This document shows positions 361 through 61,989 of a stretch of 64,000 nt of DNA, one piece after another. The stretch's first letter is position 1. Each line of letters opens with the position of its first letter. This DNA comes from a bacterium (GTDB lineage: Bacteria; Armatimonadota; UBA5829). The stretch covers positions 1 through 64,000 of the forward strand of contig JAJFUS010000046.1 of NCBI GenBank assembly GCA_021372295.1, in the 5' to 3' direction. The position numbers and the translations under genes are program-made. The notes under the pieces were generated by a model. That model did no database searches. It saw only the letters and a list, made by a program, of their open reading frames with translations, and was not told the DNA's origin.

Positions 361-2115
361 ATGAGAAATAAGAAGCGCAGCAGCAAGCCATCGCCTGCAA
401 AGATGAATGGAAATAAGCGACCATTAGTAACATGGCTGCTGGGAGCGATAACCGCGTCTATAATACCCTACGTTTATTCTCTGCGTGGCGGGTTCGTAAG
501 GGACGACCTGCAACTGATAATTATGGACCCGGCTTCGCAGAACATCTCGTTTTTTGCAAAGGCGTTTCAGAAACCTTTTCTTTATGGATTTTCGAAAAGC
601 GAGGCTCTTTATTATCGTCCTCTGGTTACTATCTCATACCAACTCAATAATACGCTCTCGCTGCATAACTCAGTCCTGTGCAGGCTCACAAATGTGATGC
701 TATATGCCGCCGCGACGGCGCTGGTGGTGCTCTTTTTATGGAAGCTCACATCGAAGGCAGCTGTGGCGGGAGTTGGCGGAATCGCTTTTGCCGTATTGCC
801 CAGCCATACGGAATCAGTCGCATGGGTCGCGGGACGCACCGACATCATCGCCGGCATATTTATGCTGGGAAGTTTTCTTGCATTCATTGAGGCGTGCCGA
901 GCAAGGCCGCGTTTCCACTGGCCTCTGGCGGGAATATGCTCGCTCTTGTTTGGATGCGCCCTGCTCTCCAAAGAACATGCGCTGGTTCTGCCATTACTGC
1001 TCGGAATATACGCCTGGGTGTTTTTAGACTCGATCAGGCGGGACGAGGTCTTGAAGTGGACTGCAGTTTTAATGCTGCCGATGGTAATCTATGTCGTTAT
1101 GCGACGGTATGCGCTGGAAGCTCCGTTCGACAGCCAGATAACCCATCTGTTCAAGGAACGCATACTCCGAACAGGTTTTCTATGCACTCAATATGTGCGA
1201 ATGCTTTTTATTCCGCAGCTTCTGCGTCCTGTTTATGACGACCCAAGCACGTGTACTCTGTCCACACCTGCACTGCTGGCAGCCTGGCTGACACCGATTG
1301 CTCTTGTAGCCACGTCCATTTGGGCAAGACGAAAAGCGCCCATCGTAGCGTTCGGAGCCGCCTGGGTACTTGTCGGGCTGCTGCCGGTAGTCGATATCAT
1401 TCCTTTGCGAGGAGGAATGGTCGCTGAGCGTTTTGTCTATATCTCGAGCATCGGTTCATCCATGATTATAGGATGGGTAATCTGCAAGATATACGAATGC
1501 CGCCCTAAGTCCTTTCAAATAATGCCGATTGCAGCAGCCATTTTGGCCTCGGGTTACTTGATCTACAGCGGCGCATGCGCGATGTCGAGCAGCCTGTACA
1601 GTGAGTCCAATCTCGAATGGGCTCGCCGAGTGGCACAGACAAAACCACGTCACGCTTTCAGCCTGTTTGCCGCCGGCGAGTTTTTTGCCGCCACAGGCTA
1701 TTATAAAGAAGCTGCACAGCAATTTGAGGCCGCTTTTGACCTCAATTTGTCCGGCGTTCAGACATCTCAGTTAGCCCAGTGGAAAAATCTGCTGGGAATC
1801 ATCTACACACGCGGCGGAAATACCTCAAGCGCAGATCGGGCATTCGTCGATGCCGTGCGTCTGGATCCGAATTACGCCCAAGCCTGGCGCAACCTGGGGC
1901 GGGCAAGGTTCAAACTCGGCAAATTTGATGCAGCCGTCAGGGCTTACGAGCACGCATTTCAGTTGGCTTCTCCAAGCGCAAGAGACCTGTTCGACAGCGC
2001 CGCCGCTTACGAATGCGCCGGTATGACCGGCAAAGCGCGCCGCATGTATGAGCTGGTCGTCAAACGATATCCCAACAGCAAATACGCGCAAAAGGCATCT
2101 GATGGTTTGTATTGA
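361..2115 (+). CDS. Polytopic membrane glycosyltransferase-like protein with C-terminal TPRs
   Basis: The 584-residue product has an N-terminal hydrophobic helix (about 23-42) followed by a GGFVRDDLQ loop. Acidic residues in that first loop are characteristic of GT-C glycosyltransferases. A YYRPLVTISYQLN segment and roughly nine further hydrophobic segments follow. The last 160 residues hold three to four TPR units (motifs such as DPNYAQAWRNLGRARFKLGK). This arrangement resembles TMTC-type O-mannosyltransferases, so transfer of a sugar from a lipid carrier is the likely job; donor and acceptor cannot be told. No clear Shine-Dalgarno sequence precedes the ATG. Its stop codon lies inside the first hairpin of repeat copy B, so the transcript must run into that structure. 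Confidence 0.75.
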   Translation: MRNKKRSSKPSPAKMNGNKRPLVTWLLGAITASIIPYVYSLRGGFVRDDLQLIIMDPASQNISFFAKAFQKPFLYGFSKSEALYYRPLVTISYQLNNTLSLHNSVLCRLTNVMLYAAATALVVLFLWKLTSKAAVAGVGGIAFAVLPSHTESVAWVAGRTDIIAGIFMLGSFLAFIEACRARPRFHWPLAGICSLLFGCALLSKEHALVLPLLLGIYAWVFLDSIRRDEVLKWTAVLMLPMVIYVVMRRYALEAPFDSQITHLFKERILRTGFLCTQYVRMLFIPQLLRPVYDDPSTCTLSTPALLAAWLTPIALVATSIWARRKAPIVAFGAAWVLVGLLPVVDIIPLRGGMVAERFVYISSIGSSMIIGWVICKIYECRPKSFQIMPIAAAILASGYLIYSGACAMSSSLYSESNLEWARRVAQTKPRHAFSLFAAGEFFAATGYYKEAAQQFEAAFDLNLSGVQTSQLAQWKNLLGIIYTRGGNTSSADRAFVDAVRLDPNYAQAWRNLGRARFKLGKFDAAVRAYEHAFQLASPSARDLFDSAAAYECAGMTGKARRMYELVVKRYPNSKYAQKASDGLY

Positions 2116-2275
2116 GGGTTTCACCCTCAAACTCCTGACCAAGGGCCTCCGCCCTTGGAACCCGCTGGGGCCGCAGGCCCCAGACCCCTGTAGCGAACTT
2201 AATTATCCCTTTAAAGGGATAATTAAGTTCGAGTCAGAAGGTCCAAGAAACCGGGTTTCCTGGCAGAGCCCCAAA
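2112..2275 (-). repeat. Composite hairpin repeat, copy B
   Basis: Five consecutive inverted repeats are visible: TTGAGGGT/ACCCTCAA, CCAAGGGC/GCCCTTGG, GGGGCC/GGCCCC, the central GAACTTAATTATCCC stem (2196-2231) and CCGGGTTTCC. The GAGAC hairpin and half of the last module are missing. The TGA stop of the upstream gene (2113-2115) is part of the first stem, and the MEMO gene ends 5 nt after the repeat. Confidence 0.9.
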
Positions 2276-2279
2276 TCAA

Positions 2280-3143
2280 CTAGGAACTGCGTAACACACT
2301 CAGCGCACCATATCCCACTACTTGATCCGTATCACCTGTGACATCGCCAGAAGTGTAATATGTAAGCTGCCGGGCGCAAGTCGCTCCCATGGCTTTGCAT
2401 GCTTCGAGCATAATAGCCGTTCCTACGACTCCGCACATTGTGATGGATCGTTCGTAAACGGTCTCGATAAGCCCCTCAGGATCGAGGTTCACGATGTGCC
2501 GCATAGCCTCGGCGTCCTTTGCCCGCGCGGATTCGCGTGACTCATAGTGGGAGAAATCGGTGCTGGAGATTATCACCGCGCTCTTGCCCTCAAGCGACCG
2601 CGCTGTGGCGCTGCCCAAATCTTTTACCAGCATAAATGCCTCAGACTTGTTCATATAAGCGACAGCAATCGGAACTATTTTGACTGACGACCCTCCGATA
2701 TACTGCAAAAACGGCAGTTGCACCTCCACCGAGTGCTCTCGCGAGTGGGCGACGTTATCGGCTCGGGCGAAATTTGAGCGCCTGAGGATCTCCTCTGCGA
2801 TGTTGGTATCCACCTTGACGGTTCCAAGCGGCGTGATCCACTCATCGCCGGTGCTGACGGCCGCTGCCGCGCCCGCGCCGTGATGGTTTGGCCCGAGTAT
2901 CACCGCAGTGTCAGGCAGTCCGTCCTGTGCGAGTTCCATATAGGCGTAGGCGGCCGCAGAACCTGAGTAAATATAGCCCGCGTGGGGACAAACCAGCCCC
3001 ACCACACGCCCGATCCTGGTCGTATTTGCGTTTGGGAGCGCGCCGGGCCCAAGGTTGCCCAGAAAGCATCCCTCTATGCTCTCAACCAGCTCTTGTTTGG
3101 TCTCCTCATAAAACACTCCGGCCACTGCAGGTCTTCGCGTCAT
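2280..3143 (-). CDS. amrB: MEMO1 family protein (AmmeMemoRadiSam system protein B)
   Basis: The 287-residue product is a full-length MEMO-like protein. It opens MTRRPAVAGVFYE, as family members do, and carries the conserved blocks LVCPHAGYIYSG, GPNHHG, HSVEVQLPF and SSTDFSHYE, which supply the metal or active-site histidines and the acidic and cysteine region. The fold is related to extradiol dioxygenases. Its molecular role in bacteria is unsettled; it often sits with AMMECR1 and radical SAM partners, neither of which is in this window. The ATG at 3143 is chosen over the GTG at 3152 because GAGGTGG lies 6 nt upstream of it. Confidence 0.88.
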   Translation of the reverse strand: MTRRPAVAGVFYEETKQELVESIEGCFLGNLGPGALPNANTTRIGRVVGLVCPHAGYIYSGSAAAYAYMELAQDGLPDTAVILGPNHHGAGAAAAVSTGDEWITPLGTVKVDTNIAEEILRRSNFARADNVAHSREHSVEVQLPFLQYIGGSSVKIVPIAVAYMNKSEAFMLVKDLGSATARSLEGKSAVIISSTDFSHYESRESARAKDAEAMRHIVNLDPEGLIETVYERSITMCGVVGTAIMLEACKAMGATCARQLTYYTSGDVTGDTDQVVGYGALSVLRSS

Positions 3144-5859: not shown

Positions 5860-6004
5860 AGCCGAGTGGTTCCTACACCCAGTATCGAACTTGATTATCC
5901 CCTTAAGGGGATAATCAAGTTCGGGTCAGAAGGTCAAGGAAACCTGGTTTCCTTGTGGAGTCCAGAGGCAAAGCCTTTGGCGGAGATTGGGGCAGAGCCC
6001 CAAA
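5860..6004 (-). repeat. Composite hairpin repeat, copy C
   Basis: The central stem at 5887-5922 is GAACTTGATTATCCCC paired perfectly with its complement. Compared with copies B and D, one A-T pair has become a G-C pair, changed in both arms. CAAGGAAACC/GGTTTCCTTG and GGGGCAGAGCCCC follow. The distal modules are degenerate. Confidence 0.9.
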
Positions 6005-6012
6005 TCTCTCCT

Positions 6013-10883: not shown

Positions 10884-10896
10884 GCCGATTTTTTGT

Positions 10897-11096
10897 TTGG
10901 GGCTCTGCCCCAAACCCCGCCAGAGACTCTGTCTCTGGGCTCTGCAAGGAAACCAGGTTTCCTTGACCTTCTGACCCGAACTTAATTATCCCCTTAAGGG
11001 GATAATTAAGTTCGCTACAGGGGTCTGGGGCCCGTGGCCCCAGCGGGTTCCAAGGGCGGAGGCCCTTGGTCAGGAGTTTGAGGGTGAAACCCTCAA
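10897..11096 (+). repeat. Composite hairpin repeat, copy D (full length)
   Basis: All seven hairpins are present in order: TTTGGGGC/GCCCCAAA, CCAGAGAC/GTCTCTGG, CAAGGAAACC/GGTTTCCTTG, central GAACTTAATTATCCCC stem (10978-11013), CTGGGGCC/GGCCCCAG, CCAAGGGC/GCCCTTGG and TTGAGGGT/ACCCTCAA. Joining segments are only about 3-20 nt. This is the reference copy. It separates the convergent uvrB and 11118 genes. Confidence 0.92.
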
Positions 11097-11117
11097 TACA
11101 AATATTGCGGGACTAAG

Positions 11118-16179: not shown

Positions 16180-16312
16180 TTGAGGGTTTCACCCTTGGAG
16201 CCCGCCGGCCGAGTGGCCCCTGGACCCTCTTATCGAACTTAATGATTCCCTTAAGTAATCAGAATGTCAAGGAAACCTGGTTTCCTTGCAGAGTCCAGAG
16301 ACAGAGTCTCCG
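16180..16312 (-). repeat. Composite hairpin repeat, copy E (decaying)
   Basis: TTGAGGG/CACCCTTGG, CAAGGAAACC/GGTTTCCTTG and CCAGAGAC/GTCTC remain. The central stem has lost part of one arm (GAACTTAATGATTCCC against AAGTAATC), so pairing is broken there. Confidence 0.8.
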
Positions 16313-32354: not shown

Positions 32355-32396
32355 TAGCGGCAAGAGTTCAGTTCTGTGGGATTTTCTTGGGGCTCC

Positions 32397-32557
32397 GCCC
32401 CAAACTCCGCCAGAGACTCTGTCTCTGGACTCTGCCAAGAAACCTGGTTTCCTGGACCTTCTGACCCTGAATTGATTACCCTCATAATATGGGGGTAATC
32501 AATTCAGAGATGGGGGTCTGGGGCCCGCGGTCGCGAGTTTGAGGGTGAAACCCTCAG
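32397..32557 (+). repeat. Composite hairpin repeat, copy G
   Basis: TTGGGGC/GCCCCAA, CCAGAGAC/GTCTCTGG and CAAGAAACC/GGTTTCC lead into the central stem (32467-32507). Its arms are GAATTGATTACCC, quite different from copies B-D yet still paired with their complement. CTGGGGCC and TTGAGGGT/ACCCTCA follow; module 7 is lost. A GATAATTCTTGA tail follows, as in remnant K. Confidence 0.9.
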
Positions 32558-32622
32558 ATAATTCTTGAGGAACCAAATTCTTACGCTAATAGCGGTTGAA
32601 CAGGTATTATTGCCGAAGCTAC

Positions 32623-41021: not shown

Positions 41022-41759
41022 TTACTCCACCACTTTGCCGAACTTGCGTGTGCGCCCCTGATAGTCCGCCACAGCCACGTATAAGTCGCTCTTGGAGAAA
41101 TCCGGCCAGAGGGTTTCGGTCACATAGAGTTCGGAGTAAGCGGTTTCCCAGAGAAGGAAATTGCTGACACGCATCTCTCCGGCAGTGCGAATGAGAAGAT
41201 CGGGCTCGGGCAGTTCGGGATGATACATCAGGCCGGAGAGCATCTTATCGTCAATATCATCCGGTGAAAGTTTTCCCTCAACCACCATACGGGCAGCCGA
41301 CCTTGCGGCGTCGACAATCTCGTTGCGGCCGCCGTAGTTGACCGCGATGTTGAGCACGATACGATTGTTGTTCTTTGTTTCCTCGTAGTCCTCGTTAAAC
41401 TGATCCTGAAGCTCCTGCGGAAGCTCGTAAAAACGCCCGCTGGTAACTATGCGAACACCCTCTTTTTTCATATAATTGAGTTCGGCTTTTGCCGCATAGC
41501 GAATCAGCTTCATAAGCCCGCTGACTTCTTCCGCGGGCCGATTCCAGTTTTCCGACGAAAACGCGTACGCCGTAATCACCTCGACCCCTATGTCAGCCGC
41601 GTTTACAACAAGGTTTTTGAGAGCTTTGTAGCCCCTGCGATGCCCTTCGAGCCGGGGCAGGCCGCGCCGCCGCGCCCATCGGCCGTTTCCGTCCATAATC
41701 ACGGCGATGTGCGCGGGAATTCGCTCGGGGTCAATATCTGTATGCTTCTTTGTGCTCAA
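41022..41759 (-). CDS. uppS: Isoprenyl transferase (undecaprenyl diphosphate synthase)
   Basis: The 245-residue product has the cis-prenyltransferase motif IAVIMDGNGRWARRRGL with its catalytic Asp, then TAYAFSSENWNRP, NIAVNYGGRNEI and LIRTAGEMRVSNFLLWETAYSEL. It makes the lipid carrier for peptidoglycan and other glycans. The last motif has GEMRVSN where GExRLSN is usual. The start is TTG with AGAGGA 6 nt upstream. It heads the uppS-dxr-rseP operon. Confidence 0.95.
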   Translation of the reverse strand: MSTKKHTDIDPERIPAHIAVIMDGNGRWARRRGLPRLEGHRRGYKALKNLVVNAADIGVEVITAYAFSSENWNRPAEEVSGLMKLIRYAAKAELNYMKKEGVRIVTSGRFYELPQELQDQFNEDYEETKNNNRIVLNIAVNYGGRNEIVDAARSAARMVVEGKLSPDDIDDKMLSGLMYHPELPEPDLLIRTAGEMRVSNFLLWETAYSELYVTETLWPDFSKSDLYVAVADYQGRTRKFGKVVE

Positions 41760-41826: not shown

Positions 41827-41930
41827 CCCAAAGAAGGACATTACTGCCCTTTGCGTCAACTTTTAATAGACAAACGGACACGGCTTGCGCGCGAGTGAAC
41901 AATTTGTGTCTGCAGACGCTTTTGGGACTC

Positions 41931-42122
41931 CGTCCCAAACCCTGCCAGAGACTCTGTCTCTGGACTCTGCCAGGAAACCCGGTTTCCTGGACCTTCTGAC
42001 TCAGAGTTATATGCTCCCTTAAGGGAGCATATAACTCTGCACTAGGGGTCTGGGGCCCGCGGCCCCAGCGCGGGTTCAGGGGCGCGGAGCCCCTGATGGG
42101 AGTTTGAGGGTGAAACCCTCAA
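41931..42122 (+). repeat. Composite hairpin repeat, copy H (full length)
   Basis: All seven hairpins are present, but several stems differ from copy D in both arms. Module 1 is TTGGGAC/GTCCCAA, module 3 is CCAGGAAACC/GGTTTCCTGG, the central stem (42004-42037) has GAGTTATATGCTCCC paired with its complement, and module 7 is CAGGGGC/GCCCCTG. These are coupled changes that keep pairing. The distal end lies about 40 nt before the next gene. Confidence 0.93.
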
Positions 42123-42163
42123 GACGTTTTGCTGTCACAAATCTTCTGCTTACGGAGGACGCA

Positions 42164-48972: not shown

Positions 48973-48982
48973 TGGGATTTTA

Positions 48983-49183
48983 TTGGGGCTCCGCCCCAAA
49001 CCCGGCCAGAGACTCTGTCTCTGGACTCTGCAAGGAAACCAGGTTTCCTTGACCTTTTGACTCAGAGTTGAATGATCCCTTAAGGGATCATTCAACTCTG
49101 GAACGGGGGTCCAGGGGCCACTTGGCTCTTGGCGAGATCCAAGGGCAGCGACATTGGTGGAAGTCTGAGGGTGAAACCCTCAG
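48983..49183 (+). repeat. Composite hairpin repeat, copy I
   Basis: TTGGGGC/GCCCCAA, CCAGAGAC/GTCTCTGG and CAAGGAAACC/GGTTTCCTTG are perfect. The central stem (49063-49100) has GAGTTGAATGATCCC paired with its complement, a fifth version of that stem. Modules 6 and 7 are degenerate. CTGAGGGT/ACCCTCAG closes the copy. Confidence 0.92.
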
Positions 49184-61815: not shown

Positions 61816-61873
61816 GGCAGGAGTCCAGTTCTGCGAGAATTACCTAAGGGTTGCAACCTCTGCCATTTGGATT

Positions 61874-61922
61874 GCGCCGGGGCCGCGGGCTCCAGACCAG
61901 GGATTGGGGCAGAACCTCAAGA
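61874..61922. repeat. Composite hairpin repeat, remnant N
   Basis: CCGGGGCCGCGGGCTCCAG and GGGATTGGGGCAGAACCTCAAG look like decayed modules 6 and 1. The rest is gone. Confidence 0.4.
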
Positions 61923-61989
61923 AAATTCCGCAAGATTGAACTATTACCCGGCACATTTACTGATAGACTGTCGAGGTGTCGTTATGCTA

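Follow-up and report, generated by a model that had tools for sequence, protein, structure and literature searches.

The central palindrome (M4) of a seven-hairpin array that occurs in about 100 copies in a bacterial genome of the phylum Armatimonadota (lineage UBA5829) changes its sequence from copy to copy while its two arms stay complementary. In 71 of the 87 copies in which M4 could be read, from array-bearing stretches fetched from the genome, the 16 outer base pairs on which perfection was scored are flawless, and these copies carry 27 different perfect genotypes. We propose, with moderate confidence, that this pattern arises because each arm can serve as the template for its partner, combined with a filter on the spread of copies.

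The copy described here, element H, occupies positions 41902–42142 of the window, by which we mean the whole stretch of 64,000 nucleotides analysed (contig JAJFUS010000046.1). It lies between uppS (41022–41759, minus strand) and an ORF on the plus strand, and is bounded by an outer inverted repeat (ATTTGTG, 41902–41908; CACAAAT, 42136–42142) that is short in this element and much longer in many other copies. The array within it, of around 200 bp, is symmetric about M4, with M1–M3 on one side and M5–M7 on the other. M4 itself (CAGAGTTATATGCTCCCTT/AAGGGAGCATATAACTCTG, 42002–42039) is a 38-bp palindrome with 19-bp arms and a loop of zero, and its allele over the outer 16 positions is identical in six copies in the genome; the first-pass annotation had recognised the palindrome correctly, at 42004–42037, and its full extent is somewhat longer. 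The left-hand hairpins are M1 (TTTGGGAC-TCC-GTCCCAAA, 41921–41939), M2 (CCAGAGAC-TCT-GTCTCTGG, 41945–41963) and M3 (CCAGGAAACC-C-GGTTTCCTGG, 41970–41990); M1 carries a paired G/C to A/T change compared to the common TTGGGGC allele. On the right are M5 (CTGGGGCC-CGC-GGCCCCAG, 42050–42068), M6 (TCAGGGGC-GCGGA-GCCCCTGA, 42076–42096) and M7 (TTGAGGGT-GAA-ACCCTCAA, 42104–42122). Reading outwards, every flanking hairpin is preceded by a GRGT-like tag (among 434 modules, GAGT 122 times, AGGT 80, GGGT 75 and GGAT 33). In element H the linker between M4 and M3 (ACCTTCTGACT, 41991–42001, plus strand) reads outwards as an AGGT tag followed by M3, and GGGGT stands just before M5.

Six copies in the window retain a recognisable M4. 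Besides H, these are B (2112–2284, minus strand; M4 2194–2231, matching arms 2195–2230), C (5886–6011, minus strand, truncated beyond M4; M4 5886–5923, matching arms 5887–5922), D (10895–11099, plus strand; M4 10977–11014, matching arms 10978–11013), G (32386–32560, plus strand, lacking M6; arms 32469–32505) and I (48982–49183, plus strand; M4 49063–49100, matching arms 49065–49098). There are also at least two decayed copies, one degenerate with a collapsed M4 (16259–16309, minus strand) and one lying within an outer inverted repeat of family A (61823–61940, minus strand). Five central-stem arm sequences, each with an exact complement, had been quoted for copies B and D (shared), C, G, H and I, and all of them are present; in G the complementarity is exact over the quoted 13 nt only, as the next pair is T/G (32482/32492), leaving one mismatch in its M4. 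The annotation had further stated that modules 1, 3 and 7 differ between H and D in both arms. This is so for M1 (TTTGGGAC/GTCCCAAA in H, TTTGGGGC/GCCCCAAA in D) and M3 (CCAGG../..CCTGG in H, CAAGG../..CCTTG in D), and also for M6, but M7 is identical; the 'module 7' of that statement must belong to another numbering scheme, since the outermost M7 hairpin is the same in both copies.

The window corresponds to contig C45 of the host genome (G000; 2.65 Mb, 98.7% complete). A BLAST search of this genome returned 40 array-sized matches, while the M3 core is found at 120 sites with at most one mismatch, 93 of them perfect. ORFs beside the arrays end or start at the element, and the arrays are thus intergenic. 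Only 0–4 perfect M3 sites are present in each of four genomes of the same genus (G001–G004), compared to about 100 array copies in G000, which suggests either a recent burst in G000 or heavy loss elsewhere.

The outer inverted repeats around them (G000 flanks; 61823–61940 in the window) are about 20–40 bp long and fall into at least three sequence families, one of which also encloses unrelated interiors without any array (L295, L297). The inner block M2–M6 occurs in both orientations relative to M1 and M7 (C18:12128, C39:4032, C39:29404 and C40:76628 in G000; L058 and L051 in G003; L066 in G004). Another palindromic cassette, AAAGCAAATTGTTTAC...GTAAACAATTTGCTTTG, lies between modules (C10:17573, C20:61637, C40:78835, C20:43412, C34:32701 and C42:30406 in G000; L307) with an apparent 2-bp duplication (CC/GG); it therefore resembles a small mobile element in its own right that targets hairpin feet.

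At ten M4 positions (2, 3, 5 and 8–14) the two arms vary in concert, and several of these positions take all four pair types. The covariation over many copies that had been anticipated is evident, as nine of these ten positions (2, 3, 5 and 8–13) share more mutual information with their pairing partner than with any other position, the exception being position 14. Positions 1, 4, 6, 7 and 15–16 are nearly constant, giving a half-site CNNANTT.......CC, and at pairs 15–16, next to the tip, all changes are single. When the 42 distinct M4 genotypes are joined in a minimum spanning tree, 52 changes affect both arms and 18 affect one. The paired changes had been ascribed either to selection for structure or to arm copying, and that pair of explanations is supported. 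Frequent mismatched arms, which would have made the perfect pairing of the first few copies a matter of chance or recent duplication, are not what the 71 perfect copies of 87 present. Such copy statistics count related copies as units, so that comparisons between near neighbours and at shared sites weigh more than raw counts. Among tree edges of no more than two base differences, 17 changes coincide where the positions pair and 0 where they do not. With a tree that uses the flanking modules alone, paired columns account for 232 coincidences on the same branch, compared to 61–81 with slid partners; this count is inflated, because M4 has also been swapped between copies.

The other six hairpins also show paired changes, for example in M2, where CCAGAGAC/GTCTCTGG becomes CAAGAGAC/GTCTCTTG. 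Perfect pairing is not demanded of every module, since non-matching alleles have spread in M2 (A.C, 17 copies) and M5 (G.T, 47 copies). The linkers diverge by 3.0% per base, compared to a one-arm divergence of 0.9% in M3 and 0.7% in M4, which we do not use as proof because the linkers include subfamily differences. Transitions and transversions number 26:26 in double and 14:4 in single changes, and do not discriminate between the models.

Array flanks from three species of the same genus were translated and matched against those in G000 (best matches ~78–94% amino-acid identity), and four comparable sites were found to be occupied by arrays in more than one species: copy D of the window (G004 C69), C45:68489 (G004 C13), C1:62106 (G002 C102) and C18:47182 (G003 C9 and G004 C20). 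Independent insertion at a preferred site could also account for this shared occupancy. Of the stem pairs that differ at these four sites, 33 do so in both arms and 5 in a single arm, as counted from hand-transcribed arms with one inserted base in the G002 M4 excluded. This comparison of orthologous positions, which had been proposed for close strains, involves species that are too far apart for single steps to be visible because their genes have already diverged. M1 and M7 have traded places at two of the shared sites, while the direction of M2–M6 is kept.

We suggest that M4 serves as the palindromic spacer in a composite repeat resembling REPINs or BIMEs, with three outward-facing hairpins on each side; single-stranded or cruciform DNA would allow the hairpins to fold. 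A mutation in one M4 arm would then be transferred to the other arm or removed by hairpin-templated synthesis, which could proceed by template switching or by fold-back repair, either at the replication fork or in the course of mobilisation. The stem sequence could then drift while its pairing stayed perfect, and copies that remained imperfect would fail to spread. The last step is suggested by the recurrence of genotypes: each of the 16 mismatched M4 genotypes is confined to a single copy, whereas 12 of the 27 perfect ones recur (P = 0.0013), which argues that structure matters for the spread of what we take to be a mobile element.

The same observations could be produced if the stem were required in mobilisation or had a role as a structure in RNA or DNA, so that mutants in one arm were impaired until a second mutation restored the pair. 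Strong paired change with few mismatches is expected under such two-step compensatory selection, as is the restriction of imperfect M4 alleles to single copies, and the invariant C1, A4, T6 and T7 would reflect a constraint on sequence as well. We nevertheless regard it as an unlikely explanation. Only about 0.02 complementary double changes private to a copy would be expected by chance (86 copies, 19 one-arm deviations), whereas the copies show 52 double changes and 27 perfect genotypes, and at least ten singleton genotypes lie one paired change away from another perfect genotype, which would require either separate selection in each copy or a lost ancestor for each allele. Nor is there the wobble bias that an RNA route through G-U pairs would leave. 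Copying is favoured over slow compensatory selection by this discrepancy and also by inversions of spacers or loops between unchanged arms: the M3 loop base shows seven exchanges for its complement and no transitions, a complement-only pattern that two-step selection does not predict, one copy (C22:46977) carries an inverted M7 loop, and in alphaproteobacterial arrays the spacer is inverted inside unchanged flanks (L075 and L139 compared to L089 and L152). Homogenised arms and inverted spacers are published marks of template switching (PMC8604942, PMC8794818).

Other observations count against arm copying. The comparison between species spans many differing positions, and no single-step event is seen in it. 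Priming by fold-back depends on a small number of unpaired bases, and the M4 tip, being almost without a loop, is poorly suited to it. Some of the double changes in M4 are replacements, because M4 has been exchanged between copies as a cassette together with its linkers; this is evident since M4 families are associated with certain right linkers and M5 types while the tree of the flanks does not predict M4. Carried to its limit, recombinational swapping of M4 and linkers would make the perfect palindromes old master alleles, with no change of arms in place, and the exchange of M1 and M7 at two shared sites would also agree with this. As the whole explanation we judge it improbable, since it leaves unexplained the origin of some 27 perfect alleles, many of them one pair apart and found once. 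The data therefore lean towards arm copying with a filter on spread, yet it is not possible to separate copying fully from two-step selection, because the species are too distant for single events to be seen and cassette exchange adds double changes of its own.

M4 might alternatively be the binding site of a symmetric protein dimer, whose half-sites track the shifting preference of the protein and for which the hairpin is irrelevant. The loopless centre and the invariant half-site positions (CNNANTT...CC) would suit such a site, but we consider it very unlikely, as the six further hairpins, which have loops, also change in pairs, and within each copy, singletons included, the variable positions are symmetric.

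The hairpin structure is maintained at the level of DNA. If pairing were kept for an RNA made from one strand, G.T mismatches should exceed A.C mismatches. In M4 the counts are 7 G.T and 8 A.C, and across M1–M4, M6 and M7 they are 53 and 43 (summed by hand, without M5 and one widespread M2 allele); the mismatches that have spread, A.C in M2 and G.T in M5, indicate opposite strands. Neither RNA strand is therefore favoured, given the similar frequencies of the two mismatches. An Rfam search gave no match, on which we rejected identity with an RNA family. The arrays are likely transcribed, and a structured RNA, or an element of the mRNA 3' end acting on one strand, would be consistent with the folding of the 221-nt array as RNA (z = -7.5; -9.4 as DNA), with one terminator-like match at M7, and with the finding that in 60 of 87 copies M1 lies beside an ORF directed into the array (P = 0.0005). 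We hold this to be scarcely probable: besides the mismatch counts and the Rfam result, most hairpins are not followed by a run of T, and REPs commonly lie downstream of genes (PMC3733652). A phage origin was also rejected, as no similar phage record was found.

A search with the pattern of M5 and its linker recovered similarly built arrays from many Acetobacteraceae, Rhodospirillales and Sphingomonadales and from some Ruminococcaceae, which may represent one family or convergence. The central palindromes of the alphaproteobacterial arrays have perfect arms of 22–27 bp (TTCCGCCTTCGGCGGGAGGGGCC...) and long spacers in both directions (L075, L078, L089, L139, L152, L170 and others). In another family of the same phylum (G035; L049, L053, L057), hairpins resembling M6 and M5 accompany an unrelated GC-rich central stem (CGTGCGGATTCCGG...CCGGAATCCGCACG). 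It is possible, and we put it forward tentatively, that symmetric arrays of several hairpins, tagged GRGT and enclosed by an outer inverted repeat, form a third REP-like superfamily, distributed over several phyla in the absence of RAYT transposases, in which the central palindrome is renewed by arm-to-arm copying and so diversifies while remaining perfect. If they are one family, abundant intergenic repeats in Alphaproteobacteria, Ruminococcaceae and this lineage would lie outside the two described REP superfamilies. Covariation is usually taken as proof of a selected RNA structure, and its strength here, with no sign of RNA, calls for caution in that reading. The hundred or so copies, together with the arrays at shared sites, offer a natural data set for asking whether compensatory selection or mutational arm copying lies behind perfect stems.

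The array looks, and probably works, like a REP or REPIN. It is a short extragenic palindromic repeat in many copies, in which inverted REP-like modules surround a hairpin-forming spacer whose stem shows compensatory changes. We do not file it as one, because none of the 434 modules carries a GTAG, GTGG or CGTC tag and the 98.7% complete genome has no match to the RAYT/Y1 transposase (PF01797). A Y1/RAYT protein was accordingly rejected as the mover, the four Y1 loci of relatives also having no perfect 8-bp hairpins nearby. Genes lying between closely spaced arrays were considered as an autonomous partner; judged by eye from their translations they appear to be ordinary cellular genes, with no transposase among them (we take them to include pyruvate kinase, RecQ, chorismate synthase, TypA and ABC transporters). 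No published description of these array sequences was found in open papers.

Compensatory changes in the REPIN spacer are already known, having been stated to be common (Bertels and Rainey 2011, PMC3116915). Like REPINs, the arrays consist of inverted short palindromes, are extragenic with a high copy number, and keep the length and hairpin capacity of the spacer while its sequence varies (PMC3116915). They differ in having three hairpins per side rather than one, in the tag, which is neither GTAG nor GTGG, in a spacer that is a loopless palindrome, and in that no RAYT/Y1 transposase gene was detected in the genome. Two REP superfamilies are defined by the tags GTAG and CGTC, untagged families being said to need study, and structured spacers between inverted REPs have been described (Di Nocera 2013, PMC3733652); in Stenotrophomonas the REPs are perfect 16-nt palindromes with a 3-nt loop beside the tag (PMC8266576). 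The present modules resemble these repeats (PMC3733652, PMC8266576, PMC3686654) in their perfect 8-bp arms and 3-nt loop directly after a short tag, and the arrays resemble them in lying downstream of genes and forming inverted dimers with structured spacers. Unlike the GTAG and CGTC repeats, their tag is GAGT, AGGT, GGGT or GGAT, and many such arrays occur in Acetobacteraceae, from which CGTC repeats are reported to be missing (PMC3733652). They share with enterobacterial BIMEs a mosaic of several palindrome types and linkers in a fixed order, and are distinguished from them by a global inverted symmetry around a variable centre and by the enclosing outer inverted repeat. The homogenised arms and inverted spacers are those of template-switch (quasipalindrome) mutation (PMC8604942, PMC8794818, PMC7202029), which was reported there in genes or reporters and is suggested here by about 100 copies and the shared sites of a repeat family.
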